From: Ruminococcus sp.
GTDB taxonomy: Bacteria; Bacillota; Clostridia; Oscillospirales; Ruminococcaceae
Assembly (NCBI GenBank): GCA_020861185.1
Contig: JAJBSV010000002.1
Span: forward strand, 248,001 to 312,000
Direction: 5' to 3'
DNA length: 64,000 nucleotides
In this document: in pieces, positions 26,489-51,987 of the stretch
Position numbering within the stretch: the stretch's first letter is position 1
Layout: each line of letters begins with the position of its first letter
Notes under the pieces: generated by a model
What the model saw: only the letters and a program-made list of their open reading frames with translations
Told to the model about the DNA's origin: nothing
Database searches by the model: none
Translations under genes and position numbers: made by a program

Positions 26489-27570
26489 TCAAATACTCCT
26501 TTCAAATCCGATCCATTTCAGTGCTGTCTCTATCTTCAGCTTCCTCGCCATAACATTCACGATGTCCACAGCAAGTACGCTCAATAAAGCCGTCATTATG
26601 AAACAAATTATGAAATTGAGTATCCAGATGTCTTCGAACAGCAAACTGCTGAACTTCCTCACAAACATGAGAATGAAACAGTGGATATAGAAGATGCCGT
26701 AGGAACGGTCGCCGATGTGGTGTAATACTCTCTGTAGATTATTCTCTCCTTCTTGATTCCTATGAGCTAAGTTCATGCAAAGCAGGCAAATAGAGAATGC
26801 GTAAAGAAAACTGCTTATCTTAAACAGACCAGTCGCTAGTCCACTGTTTCCACCACATTTTAGGACAATAACGCTTTCGATGCATTCCAGCACAAAGGCG
26901 ATAAATACAAAACGAAATTTTCCAAATCTATCCGCCAAGCCATTAACCGCCAAATTGTTTGCTTTCGTATTCAGACCGAGATAATAGAAAAGCATCCAAG
27001 CTGGGAAAAATAACCCTCGAATTGTACCCGACATAAAATATGAATCAGGAATTATAGCAAAACAGACATAAATGAAAAACAGATAGGCAAACGAAATTAA
27101 CCATAAAATCTTGTCTACTGCTCCCTTCTTTTCTACTGCCTTAAGCAACAATGGCGTCAATAGGGTAAACTGAAGTAAGCAAATTATATAATATAATGGT
27201 GCCGAAGCACCTCCAGTAATGAAATTGAGTGCATAAGCTAACCAATCAATTGAGGTTCCATCTCGCACAACTCCAGAAATAGAAATCAAACTATAAAACG
27301 TTGTCCAGAGAATATAAGGTACTAATAATACCCCCCTCTAGAACATATGTGCGATTTCGGACTATTTTTCACTTTATCCTGATTCACAAAGTATCCTGCC
27401 ATGAAGAAGAATAACGGAACAGGGAAAAGTATAATCTGTCTTATGAAAACCCACAAACCATGCATCAATTCGCCATCCACTGACATATCCGGTGAAGGGC
27501 AATGTATCATGATAACTGCGAGAATACATATCCCTCGCATGATTTGCCAGAATGGTTTTCTTTTACTCAT
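26489..27570 (-). CDS. Acyltransferase 3 family membrane protein, out of frame at a G6 tract
   Basis: Membrane O-acyltransferase (PF01757 type, ~10 helices, ~360 residues) that would add acetyl or another acyl group to a glycan. The N-terminal frame starts at ATG 27570 (MSKRKPFWQIMRGICILAV, with the catalytic-type histidine in MIHCPSP) and stops just after the tract at 27331-27336. The C-terminal frame resumes with VPYILWTTFYSLISISG and runs to 26489. One extra G (seven) joins them as SRGGVLLVPYILW. Last gene of the operon, next to the thiolase. Either phase-OFF, a pseudogene, or a homopolymer miscall. Confidence 0.75.
27331..27336 (-). repeat. G6 tract (coding strand), acyltransferase gene
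   Basis: Coding-strand context TAGAGGGGGGTATTA. Frame is lost here; the full gene would be open with seven G (or four). Confidence 0.85.
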
Positions 27571-34197: not shown

Positions 34198-34723
34198 TTA
34201 CATGATGCACTGTTTCTCTGTTTCAAATTTTTTCCTGCCCCACTCATCTGTATTTGCTATCACCTTTGCCGGTACTCCGGCACATACAGAATTGCTTGGA
34301 ATATTCTTGCTTACTATTGACCCAGCACCAATAACACAATTATCGCCGATTTCTACACCTGGCAAGATAATGCTTCGCTGCCCGATGAATGTATTCTTTC
34401 CTATCTTCACACTTTTTACAGCCTTAAATTCATGTGTCCTCTCAAGTCCGGCAGCTATCATTCCATAGTCAATAGAATAGTCATGCGTTAAAATAATCGT
34501 TTGAGATGTAATTGAGCTTCCCTCACCGATTATCACGGTTCCGGAGGTGTCTAAATTAACATCAGGCGAGATAAACCGTACCCCCCTCAAACCTAACGCC
34601 CTTAGACGTATAATACTCTTGGATCAAATTCATATAATGATTTCTGTTTAAGCATCTGAAAGCAAGTGTACGAACAGGTTTTACAAAGAGCCTTGCTATA
34701 TAATTCTTTACAGATTTTGGCAT
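34198..34723 (-). CDS. Hexapeptide-repeat O-acyltransferase, out of frame at a G6 tract
   Basis: Starts at ATG 34723 behind GGAGG with PKSVKNYIARLFVKPVRTLA and reaches TSKGVRFEGG, where the frame breaks at the G6 tract (34581-34586). The remainder, in another frame, is a left-handed beta-helix acetyltransferase (RFISPDVNLDTSGTVIIGEG, histidine in ILTHDYS, NTFIGQRSIILPG) ending at 34198. Five or eight G would restore a ~175-residue protein. It would acetylate a sugar of the repeat unit. The downstream part could also be started weakly at TTG 34590 but would lack ~45 residues. Confidence 0.75.
34581..34586 (-). repeat. G6 tract (coding strand), hexapeptide acyltransferase gene
   Basis: Coding-strand context TTTGAGGGGGGTACGGTT. 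The gene is open only with five or eight G. Confidence 0.85.
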
Positions 34724-36013: not shown

Positions 36014-37061
36014 TCACTTCTTTACCAGATAAATCAGCCCTGTTTCGTGGGCGATTTTCTGAATCATAAATCGCAGTTTACCCTTAGTGTTATAACCGCC
36101 GTATTTTTTTATAATGTATTCAAATCCATAATTCCTGTAGTCATTACGAAACAAATCAACTTTTGAATTGCGTTCTACAGAATGTTGAAGATTCGTCTGA
36201 TATTTAACATAATCATCCGATTTACATTCTGCAATACGATATCTTTTCTTAATTGCATCGTCTATGACAGTATCAATAAGGTACCTACCCTTTTTTGTGT
36301 TCACGATTACAAGATTAACGCCATCTTTCGCAGTAATTCTCCATTCAGCAGCTGTTTTTGGCATCACATTCTCGAATCCCCAAAAATCTCCAATAGTGAG
36401 ATCGCCAGCGCAATTCATATTAGCAAACTTACATTGGTAGCAGCACTCACGATAGGCTAGACCAGTAAAATAAAGTGTAGTAAACATCCTGACATCCTGA
36501 GTGTTTTTCTTGACGATACCATTTGAGAATTCAGCCATGCAGGGATACTTCCTCCATCGCGTACCTTTATAACGGAAAGAGAAATTTTTAAGCGCGGCAC
36601 CATTCTTTTCTTCAAGCCAACTCACATAGTCTTTCCACAACTTCTGATTCGGCGTACCATGGCATATAATATCTATAGCATAAAATTTTTCAGACGGAAG
36701 ATTACGAAAACCAATATATTTCCGAATAGCGTTTACCTGACACGGTGTACCAGAAAAAAGTACATACTTCTGTTCTTTCAAAGCCTTGGTCAGTTCAGGA
36801 TACATACAAGTCATATCAGATGCCACATATTTTGAACCGCGAAACTTCTCGCAACCATCAATACTATCCGCAGATTGATGTACAACGTTAAAATGCTCAT
36901 CAAAAGAAGCACCAAAACAAGCCCATCCGTTCAGAGCAGGCGACTCACTTGTACCCCCCACAAGCCAAACCTGCAAAAGCTTCCAACAATGCGGTAAAAG
37001 CTCCGCCGGAAGATGATTGACGCTCTATTTCTGTGTTGTTTCTAAATGCATATGCTTCCAA
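36014..37061 (-). CDS. Short F420-dehydrogenase beta-like protein, out of frame at a G6 tract
   Basis: Starts probably at TTG 37061 behind AGAGGAG, five bases after the pyruvyl transferase stop, and reads ELEAYAFRNNTEIERQSS then SGGAFTALLEAFAG. At the tract 36954-36959 the frame breaks; downstream it continues GWACFGASFDEHFNVVHQ, FSGTPCQVNAI and GDFWGFENV to 36014. Five or eight G would rejoin it (~350 residues). Even then the ferredoxin motifs of its two relatives in this operon are absent, so it would depend on another electron donor. Confidence 0.75.
36954..36959 (-). repeat. G6 tract (coding strand), F420-dehydrogenase-like gene
   Basis: Coding-strand context CTTGTGGGGGGTACAAGT. The gene is open with five or eight G. 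Confidence 0.85.
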
Positions 37062-38209: not shown

Positions 38210-39309
38210 GCTGCCACCCCACTTCTTTCAAAATGGATGACAGCTTCTTTAGTTAGAATTACTCGGTTTCGAGTACCCCCCCACACAGATTTCTTCTCAA
38301 ATTGGGATTCCTGTGGGAATTTTCTCTCAAACGCTTTATTCACATGTGTGACAATTTCATCAAACTCATCATCATTGTCAACATTGTCATTTATGCAGAT
38401 AACCTTAGTCTTGCCTTTAGTGATGCAATCCACAACTGGTTTTTCATCTCCTAAGTATACGACATCATAAAACTTACTGAATCCAGGATTCCGTATTTCA
38501 AATTTACCTGTGGCAATCTGCCAAAATCTCACCGCCCATTGAGCTACATTAAACTCATGCCTAAATCTGGAATTTAATGTATCAACCATATCGTCTTCAG
38601 CTAAATTCCACATCTCTTCGAATGTCGATTTCAAAAAGGACGTTGCTGTGTGTGTCTCGTTAAAACCTGTAATGTTATGCCAGGGCATCATGCAAATTGT
38701 TTTGATTAAATCTTTACCATTTCTAGGACTATAAAACTTACCTTTGCTATTGTTTAGGATTTCCTGTTTTGTATACCTTTTTGCAATGAGTCTCGTACAC
38801 ATGACTGCAATGCCATAAACTTGTCCCTTTCCACCGTCTTGCTTGTAATCAGCTTGTGTAGGAGCAAATCCAACCGTATCAAGAGGCAAGCCATTTTTAA
38901 AGAAATCCTCCGGCTTGGCTTTTTTCAGCAGAAACATATCATCATTAAAATAGACGAAATGCTCTGAAAGCCCTGGAATCTTATACATCAAAAGCTCGAC
39001 TGCACAATTATTGAAGCTTGGAACCAATTCCTCTGGAAACAATATGTCCTGGTTGATAACAGAGATCCTCTCACAATCCAAATCTAGCCATTTAGGATAA
39101 TGTCCGGGGGTCAACAAGTATACATGATTAACCCAGTTTGCATATTTATCAATTCCACGTAATAGGAATTGCAGATTGTTCCACTCACGCACACGTCTTT
39201 TTCTTGTATCATCACCTTTGGTGGCTCTATACTGCTGACGCTTGGCAAGCCAATCTTCATCATTTCCGTCTACCCAGGAAATCACAAAGTCAATAGGATA
39301 GTTTTCCAT
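38206..39309 (-). CDS. Stealth-family capsular polysaccharide phosphotransferase
   Basis: A 367-residue Stealth protein, related to GlcNAc-1-phosphotransferases, which transfer sugar-1-phosphate to build phosphodiester-linked polymers. Conserved regions CR1-CR4 are visible: IDFVISWVDGNDEDW, the RVREWNNLQFLLRGI segment, HFVYFNDDMFLLKK, and HEFNVAQW. ATG 39309 has GGAGG eight bases upstream. A G7 tract (38276-38282) lies near the 3' end and is in frame as SVWGGTRNRVILTK. Six or eight G would change the last ~20 residues and shorten the protein, but spare all CR motifs. Confidence 0.88.
   Translation of the reverse strand: MENYPIDFVISWVDGNDEDWLAKRQQYRATKGDDTRKRRVREWNNLQFLLRGIDKYANWVNHVYLLTPGHYPKWLDLDCERISVINQDILFPEELVPSFNNCAVELLMYKIPGLSEHFVYFNDDMFLLKKAKPEDFFKNGLPLDTVGFAPTQADYKQDGGKGQVYGIAVMCTRLIAKRYTKQEILNNSKGKFYSPRNGKDLIKTICMMPWHNITGFNETHTATSFLKSTFEEMWNLAEDDMVDTLNSRFRHEFNVAQWAVRFWQIATGKFEIRNPGFSKFYDVVYLGDEKPVVDCITKGKTKVICINDNVDNDDEFDEIVTHVNKAFERKFPQESQFEKKSVWGGTRNRVILTKEAVIHFERSGVAA
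38276..38282 (-). repeat. G7 tract (coding strand), Stealth gene, in frame
   Basis: Coding-strand context GTGTGGGGGGGTACTCG. The present length reads through to a full C-terminus. It is the only one of the five genic tracts that is in frame. Confidence 0.85.
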
Positions 39310-49751: not shown

Positions 49752-50767
49752 TTATTTCAATCTATTCTCCAATTTTTTCGCCTGCGAAAGGATGGGCTTT
49801 TCAAGATACTTTGTCAAAACATACGCAAACATATAAGCAAGCACAAACTTAATGATGCACCCAACAATCTGCATAGCGAGAGACGTATCAAAAGTGATGA
49901 ACTTTGTAAGCAGCTCATAGGGTATCCCTGCTCCCAAGAAGAATGCAAAACCGATTTCTCCAAGCTTTATGAAAAATTCGTTGTGAATACTGAATCTTTC
50001 TGCGACAAAGAACAAAAGTAATCCAACGTTATATGCAAACAAATACTCGAAAATCATGTCCGTATAGGACAGCGCCACAGCAACCGCAAGTCCGACTTCA
50101 AACTCTACAACAAGCAATATCATCCCTGTTAGCGTGATAATTCCCTTTTCATAATCCGTATAGTTGACTCCCAATATAGCAACCGCTATCAGCAAGAAGA
50201 AAGCAGTTGGAAACGGCATTCCTGTGGAATATCTCAATGCACCCACAACAACAGCCAAAATCATAATGAATATGAGGATGATGTGTCTTTGCGCGTTATT
50301 TCTTTCGCCGGTAATAAACCTGATGCCAAATATACAAACACCGACAAAGAACGCTATCTGAATCGGCAACATCCAACTTGCTCCAAGGATATTGTCAAAT
50401 CCAAGAAATTCTTGGAAAGTCGTAAAATTAGCTAAAATCCTCGCAATCGACAATTCGGACTTGTCCATCACCAAACACATAAGTATCAAAAGAATCCAAT
50501 ACATCGGGTAAATTCTCACAAGACGATTTACGAGATACTGCTTCCGATTTCTCTTTTCTCTGGCGGATACCGTGAGGTATCCCGACATCAGAAAGAAGAT
50601 AACGACACCGATTCTGCCGATTATGAAGCCAACATTATATGACCACCAATAGTGCGGCAAATGACTGATAAAAACCAGTAATGCCGCAATTCCTCTGAGA
50701 GTAGCTACCCAACTAAGGTAGTTACCCCCCCACGCTTATTTATCTGATTGGTTTGTGCTTCTTGCAT
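49752..50767 (-). CDS. Acyltransferase 3 family membrane protein, out of frame at a G7 tract
   Basis: Starts at ATG 50767 behind AGGAG with QEAQTNQINKR and meets the G7 tract (50725-50731) after 12 codons; the frame then stops at VTTLVG. One base away the family sequence resumes: NYLSWVATLRGIAALLVFIS, histidine in the SHLPHYWW segment, and IGVVIFFLMSGYL, to the stop at 49752 (~10 helices). Eight (or five) G would give an intact ~338-residue O-acyltransferase. The tract sits so early that its length acts as an on/off switch for the whole protein. Without it, a weak internal GTG/ATG start would lose the first helix. Confidence 0.8.
50725..50731 (-). repeat. G7 tract (coding strand), acyltransferase gene 5' end
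   Basis: Coding-strand context AAGCGTGGGGGGGTAACT. It lies 12 codons into the gene. Eight or five G restore the frame. Confidence 0.88.
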
Positions 50768-50931: not shown

Positions 50932-51711
50932 TTATTCTCCTTCTTTATGGAAAATGACCGAGAAGGTCTTGAAAATTAGCTTCCAATCTTCCTTGAAACT
51001 GTATTCACGCACATACTTAGCGTCGAGCTTCATCCAATCGTTGAAGCTGACTTTATTCCTTGAAGGCTGAATCTGCCAGTAGCAAGTGAGTCCTGGACGA
51101 ACCAGAAGCCTCTGGCGTGCATAGTCGTCATACTGCTCGACCTCTTTCGGAAGAGGAGGGCGGGGACCGACGATGCTCATGTCGCCTCTGAGGATATTCA
51201 CGAGCTGCGGAAGCTCATCAATACTTGTTTTTCTTATGAATTTACCGACCCCTGTGATTCTTGGGTCATTCTTGATTTTGAAGACGGGACCGTCCATCTC
51301 GTTCTTGTCCATAAGCTCCTCAAGCTTGCTTTCGGCATTCGGAATCATCGAGCGGAACTTCCAGAGCTTGAAGGTCTTGCCGTTCTTGCCGACTCTTTCC
51401 TGCTTGAATATGGGGCTTGCACCGGGGCTGTCGATCACGATTGCAAGCGCAACGATAAGCATAGGAATAAGTAACACAATAAGCGCGCCGAGCGACAATA
51501 CAAAATCCTCCGCACGCTTAATAAGGCGATAAGCTCTCTTGGAAGATTCAACCTCCTCCCGAGTGACAAGATTTTCCTTATCTCCGTCGGGACTGCCCTC
51601 GCCGTGTGATGTCTCTGTTATTTCTCTTTCTGTCTCTTTAATCTCTGAATATGTACCTTCCTCACTATCGGTTTTTACTGCCGAAGCTGCGGTCAATACC
51701 TCACTCTGCAT
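50932..51711 (-). CDS. Initiating undecaprenyl-phosphate sugar-1-phosphate transferase
   Basis: A 259-residue polyprenyl-phosphate sugar phosphotransferase of the short WcaJ/EpsL type that loads the first sugar onto undecaprenyl phosphate. An acidic, low-complexity N-terminus (~60 residues) is followed by one membrane segment (SLGALIVLLIPMLIVALAIV) and the catalytic domain: KQERVGKNGKTFKLWKFRSM, SIDELPQLVNILRGDMS and VGPRPPLP. First gene of the exopolysaccharide operon, behind a consensus promoter. ATG 51711 is chosen over TTG 51747, though its ribosome-binding site is weak. Confidence 0.9.
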   Translation of the reverse strand: MQSEVLTAASAVKTDSEEGTYSEIKETEREITETSHGEGSPDGDKENLVTREEVESSKRAYRLIKRAEDFVLSLGALIVLLIPMLIVALAIVIDSPGASPIFKQERVGKNGKTFKLWKFRSMIPNAESKLEELMDKNEMDGPVFKIKNDPRITGVGKFIRKTSIDELPQLVNILRGDMSIVGPRPPLPKEVEQYDDYARQRLLVRPGLTCYWQIQPSRNKVSFNDWMKLDAKYVREYSFKEDWKLIFKTFSVIFHKEGE

Positions 51712-51854
51712 TGCTTTACCAGCCTTCCACGAGCTATTCAAATACAATGTTGAAAATTATAATATTCCTCTATCCCGGAATCGGCGCTACCCGCCGTCCG
51801 CGTGAGCTCTTCTCAACATGTGCCCACTCACCTTATTCCTTATCCACAGCCTAC

Positions 51855-51883
51855 ATTATAACAAAGAATACACCTGTTGTCAA
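51855..51883 (-). promoter_or_regulatory. Consensus sigma-A promoter of the exopolysaccharide operon
   Basis: Minus-strand TTGACA (51883-51878), 17-bp spacer, TATAAT (51860-51855), both perfect. The ~140-base leader that follows carries a compact hairpin GGCGGGTAGCGCC. All genes from 51711 down to 26489 are on this strand with small gaps, and no other convincing promoter or terminator was found between them. Confidence 0.9.
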
Positions 51884-51980: not shown

Positions 51981-51987
51981 CCCCCCC
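51981..51987 (-). repeat. G7 tract upstream of the exopolysaccharide promoter
   Basis: Minus-strand context TTTGTGGGGGGGTACACG, about 100 bases upstream of the -35 box. It is not inside a recognisable gene, yet its flanks match those of the genic tracts. The stretch 51748-52090 contains the promoter, this tract, the small palindrome ACGGCGGAGCCGT and nested inverted repeats, but no convincing gene. Confidence 0.85.

Follow-up and report, generated by a model that had tools for sequence, protein, structure and literature searches.

The best-known examples of switching by G-run slippage come from Gram-negative pathogens. In the poly-G phase variation of Campylobacter jejuni, Helicobacter and Neisseria, as at the locus described here, homopolymeric G tracts lie near the start of, or inside, surface-glycan genes, the reading frame sets ON or OFF, several switches occur per genome, and tracts are also placed in promoters and at the 3' ends of genes (PMC8355987, PMC2823697). 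The locus differs from those systems in belonging to a Clostridia-type lineage that has MutS, in its shorter tracts (mostly G6-G9), and in a near-fixed TA after the run combined with a left flank that is specific to the species group. A second likeness is to the sortase-dependent pili of Bifidobacterium breve, a gut commensal in which replication slippage in an intragenic G-tract was demonstrated by maximum depth sequencing (PMC9187656); there the switch acts on pilus clusters, and the abstract mentions no conserved sequence context, whereas here it would act on polysaccharide acylation. On/off control of surface-polysaccharide O-acylation, as proposed here, is known for NeuO of E. coli K1, OafA of Haemophilus influenzae and OafB of Salmonella, of which OafA and OafB are acyltransferase-3 (AT3) proteins (PMC9558356, PMC3046976); the OafB switch is of another, epigenetic type (PMC9558356). 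Finally, at the RepG-controlled tlpB leader of H. pylori a variable G-repeat in the mRNA leader tunes surface glycan synthesis (PMC8295292), as may also happen here, although many of the present tracts are intragenic or lie in promoters.

Here we describe a G7 tract within a polysaccharide operon in a 64,000-nucleotide window (the whole stretch of DNA analysed). We consider it highly probable, from the genomic evidence set out below, that this tract is a slipped-strand poly-G contingency locus that would switch polysaccharide O-acylation.

Reading frames and protein family at the G7 tract

The tract occupies positions 50725-50731 on the minus strand, is followed by TA, and lies 12 codons 3' of the start of an out-of-frame acyltransferase-3 gene (49752-50767, minus strand), which is identified by its profile match. 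The elements named by the sequence-only reading, a ribosome-binding site, an ATG, twelve codons and then G7, were all found as described (AGGAG ahead of the ATG at 50767; tract at 50731-50725, all on the minus strand). From this ATG, the frame of the G7 allele reaches a TAG after 20 codons, in line with the stop that had been expected after about 20 residues; its product, read from the frame, is MQEAQTNQINKRGGVTTLVG (50705-50767, minus strand, with the stop codon). The frame beginning just 3' of G7 is uninterrupted down to 49752 on the minus strand and carries no further stop or shift. In the 5' direction this acyltransferase frame contains a TAA four codons ahead of the tract, and its earliest ATG, GTG or TTG 3' of the tract is the TTG at 50660, which sits within the first predicted hydrophobic stretch. 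Because of the upstream TAA and the absence of a start codon before TTG 50660, the full protein cannot be produced from the G7 allele. The gene is OFF at G7 and ON at G8 or G5, where the anticipated protein of ~338 residues comes out at 338 and 337 amino acids, respectively. The homopolymer is positioned such that changes of one unit switch the reading frame, as is the case at contingency loci.

The proposed family also held up, since the downstream frame matches Acyl_transf_3 (PF01757) with 63.1 bits (cut-off 31) over profile positions 3-325 in a profile search. AT3 proteins carry an R/K-X10-H motif in TM1 and an RXXR motif in the first cytoplasmic loop (PMC9558356). Reading the translation of the downstream frame locates RGIAALLVFISH, of the form R-X10-H, immediately 3' of the tract, and RLVR as the RXXR motif, with the TM1 and loop placements taken from the published definition (PMC9558356). 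The acyltransferase is the second gene of the operon. It follows an undecaprenyl-phosphate sugar transferase (Bac_transf; 50932-51747, minus strand, by profile match), 5' of which is a predicted promoter, TTGACA-17-TATAAT (51855-51883, minus strand), with 12/12 consensus matches. After it come genes for a mannose-1-phosphate guanylyltransferase, a GDP-mannose dehydratase, another epimerase-type protein and glycosyltransferases, and the operon also includes an EpsG-type polymerase, pyruvyl transferases, a Stealth-type gene, FrhB-like genes and a flippase. This context suggests that the predicted acyltransferase would transfer acyl groups to a surface sugar, and the O-acylation is most likely acetylation.

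G-runs followed by TA in the window and across the genus

The window contains six runs of G6 or longer, all on the operon coding strand and all followed by TA (6/6). The sequence-only reading had overlooked the genus-wide, context-specific tract set to which these belong, including the five further members in the window, all of which are on the minus strand. An intergenic G7-TA (51981-51987) lies ~100 bp upstream of the promoter, is followed by a hairpin, and is G8 in the sister genome G028. The Stealth-type gene (39336-38206) carries a G7-TA at 38276-38282, close to its 3' end; this tract is in frame, and reading continues into the next gene's ATGA. G6-TA tracts are found out of frame in an FrhB-like gene (36954-36959) and in a hexapeptide acetyltransferase gene (34722-34198; tract at 34581-34586), each of which would be ON at G5 or G8, and in a second acyltransferase-3 gene (27570-26489; tract at 27331-27336), ON at G7 or G4, whose fragments match PF01757 positions 4-60 and 79-324 in two different frames. 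The gene is broken at four of the five intragenic tracts, each time exactly at the tract, and breaks in operon genes of the window are confined to G6+ runs. The tract at the end of the Stealth-type gene could be a switch of translational coupling. Some 80 nt are common to window position 38282 and locus L082:8251 (86% over 81 nt, comprising tract, hairpin and next-gene start) in two species with unrelated flanking genes, and in this shared element the frame of the tract sets whether translation gets to the next start. A mobile 75-nt cassette was rejected as an explanation, as this pair (window Stealth tail and L082:8251) was the only one found and there was no repeat family. At L076:2375, L076:1207, L082:4069 and L080:4180, several unrelated genes close with a tract and a brief tail, often ...AA, which extends over the ATG of the gene that follows.

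Across the genus, sampled as 31 species with one genome per species, GGGGGGTA occurs in 712 copies against 148 for the reversed word and is in excess over it in 28/31 genomes; a general excess of GGGGGGTA is absent from the genomes examined in other families of the same order. Within the genome that contains the window, TA comes after 14 of the 46 G6+ runs, among them all seven in a 42-kb stretch that surrounds the operon and extends past it. In the compared stretches, of which those outside the window were mostly selected for GGGGGGTA and are thus biased, TA follows 5.6-7.8% of G1-G5 runs versus 89-100% of G6+ runs. In an unbiased draw, one species group has TA after 22/30 G7+ runs, and there the base 5' of the run is mostly T (preceded by G); a second group has it after 16/31 G8+ runs, and there that base is mostly C. 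TA is present after tracts in differing codon phases, and the protein is therefore not the explanation of TA. A Chi-like or uptake word was dropped as an interpretation because of how often the word occurs, 14 times in 2 Mb. Intragenic tracts are found in acyltransferases, hexapeptide acetyltransferases, SGNH hydrolases, FrhB-like genes and glycosyltransferases (families named from translations, except for the acyltransferase, hexapeptide and FrhB genes in the window). Among 31 PF01757 matches in the genus, a profile-derived list that includes the window's two genes and in which only one half stands for some of the broken genes, a coding-strand G6+ run is present in 23 and a C6+ run in none (0/31), with ON and OFF states mixed; about 0.014 coding-strand G6+ runs per gene are expected at the own-genome rate.

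Tracts are also placed outside coding sequence. GnTA sites fall within a promoter spacer, of 14-20 nt, in 18/116 cases (control 1.1%), and such tracts are probable transcriptional switches. Runs of G6-G11 were noted in spacers before TATAAT-like boxes at L081:14422, L084:2516, L067:1511, L068:1496, L074:1497 and L091:4562. A leader type was seen at L041:1498, L052:1509, L079:2517, L057:1500 and L094:3007. Here the order is promoter, G7-G9-TA, a UUCG-type hairpin that draws part of the G-run into its stem, a second hairpin that is terminator-like or covers the ribosome site, and then the gene. The leader orthologues L041, L052 and L079 carry G9, G7 and G9, respectively, and the length of the tract may tune attenuation. 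Nine loci with leader-type tracts gave no match at the Rfam gathering threshold. A hairpin after the tract was rejected as a general feature, folding energy not being enriched (mean -4.5 vs -4.7); stems of at least 5 pairs after the tract are enriched (25% vs 4.5%), and the leader class is the largest contributor.

The tracts might instead be primarily sites for a trans-acting factor (a RepG-like RNA or a protein) that reads GGGGGGTA, with the frameshifts a by-product or second layer. Consistent with this are the presence of TA behind tracts that differ in reading phase or lie in non-coding sites, the species-group-specific left flank (G-T before the run versus C), the coding-strand orientation of the tracts and the precedent of RepG (PMC8295292). 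However, the promoter-spacer tracts are upstream of transcription, and the frame breaks and their variety favour switching, so that we regard this reading as unlikely.

RNA polymerase can slip at G-runs, and such transcript slippage, or else a programmed frameshift at the run, could yield some full-length protein at any tract length, an account that draws support from the context conserved throughout the tract set. A fixed shift would hold both the offset and the length of orthologous tracts constant, whereas the offsets needed are gene-dependent (+1, +1, -1, -1 and 0 for the five intragenic tracts of the window; 0, 1 and 2 across the genus, with no constant shift) and orthologous tract lengths vary. 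A programmed shift is accordingly very unlikely.

Relatives, selection and changes in tract length

One scan of named genomes recovered two relatives of the acyltransferase gene. The first (L095, MAG Oscillospiraceae bacterium MO.2_2, which is G028:C3) belongs to the same genus and has G7 at the same place, OFF; the second (L096, MAG Lachnospiraceae bacterium MO.3_6), at 77% identity, has G9-TA following the seventh codon and is likewise OFF. The G028 flank holding the acyltransferase is 93% identical to the window, and no DNA similar to the window core (~25-49 kb, the polysaccharide locus) is present in the 60 kb of G028:C3 compared. The exact tract is OFF in 3/3 genomes (window G7, G028 G7, L096 G9); the G8 or G5 allele for which the sequence-only reading had looked to relatives was not found at this tract among the three. 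The dN/dS of the post-tract frame is 0.19 against G028 and 0.045 against L096, and judging from these ratios the OFF frame is under purifying selection and kept functional. Being OFF in every genome seen and nevertheless under purifying selection is expected of a reversible switch and not of a dead gene.

A fixed, decaying pseudogene, in which the frameshift is a dead end, would agree with the OFF state of all three copies, the window's own and those of the two relatives with an orthologue. It is made highly improbable by a dN/dS of about 0.05-0.19 on an untranslated frame without any further stop or shift, by retention of the tract at the same place in the 77%-identity orthologue, and by other acyltransferase genes in the genus that are ON at similar tracts. 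A homopolymer assembly or sequencing error is scarcely credible: the genomes are drafts and G-runs are error-prone on some platforms, but the sister genome assembly likewise has G7, operon breaks occur only at G6+ runs, which cluster in polysaccharide loci with TA after them, and errors would not yield the TA context or the promoter-spacer tracts.

Length differences were counted between orthologous pairs, that is, sites with similar flanks, and reflect between-species divergence. They occur in 4/9 pairs of G7+ runs vs 1/18 pairs of A6+ runs (P = 0.03, a small sample), in 6/11 G7+ pairs by a looser rule, and in none of the orthologous short runs (0/44 for G4-G5 and 0/209 for A4-A5). MutS_I is present in 30/31 genomes of the genus, and loss of mismatch repair was rejected on this ground; with MutS present, mismatch repair would damp slippage. 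Judged by analogy, a length of G6-G7 is short for a hypermutable tract and counts against the contingency reading; the 3'-end tracts of H. canadensis are at least G10 (PMC2823697). The earlier claim of an on/off contingency gene is supported by purifying selection on the OFF frame, by ON alleles among the genus's other acyltransferases and by changed tract length between orthologues; the exact tract has been seen only OFF (G7, G7, G9).

A candidate switch of polysaccharide O-acylation

In the contingency reading that we favour, slippage of the replicating strand at G7 would add or remove one G. A G8 (or G5) allele would give the membrane acyltransferase, and G6, G7 or G9 the short peptide alone. 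The acyltransferase would O-acylate the polysaccharide product of the surrounding operon, an exopolysaccharide or capsule. Descendants would inherit the gain or loss of the enzyme and hence of polysaccharide O-acylation. Independent switches within the operon (acyltransferase, second acyltransferase, hexapeptide acetyltransferase, FrhB-like gene, Stealth-type gene and upstream region) could then generate many surface variants per strain. That the run slips in living populations is our inference, as are the donor and acceptor of the acyl group, the surface effect and the benefit. From the genomes compared, there appear to be up to tens of G-run switches per genome, concentrated in polysaccharide loci. 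A more speculative proposal, to which we give a small but real chance, is that the genus possesses a dedicated sequence-specific system to make or read the switches: a candidate trans-acting RNA or protein would recognise the run together with its TA, and through this single motif dozens of surface genes would be turned on and off or tuned, by means of reading frame, the spacing of promoter elements, leader structure and next-gene coupling.

Compared with known systems, the novel features are the lineage, the shortness of the tracts and the fixed TA that follows them. A literature search of partial coverage found no descriptions of such tracts in Clostridia. To our knowledge, neither NeuO nor OafA has G-runs as its repeats, and this genus of uncultured, gut-type Clostridia is known only from draft genomes. 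The near-fixed TA, with a left flank that varies by species group, hints at a dependence of slippage or recognition on context. If the contingency reading is true, surface polysaccharide diversity within a strain would in part be random and reversible, with relevance to phage resistance and immune recognition, and out-of-frame genes in the draft genomes of these bacteria should not be equated with pseudogenes.
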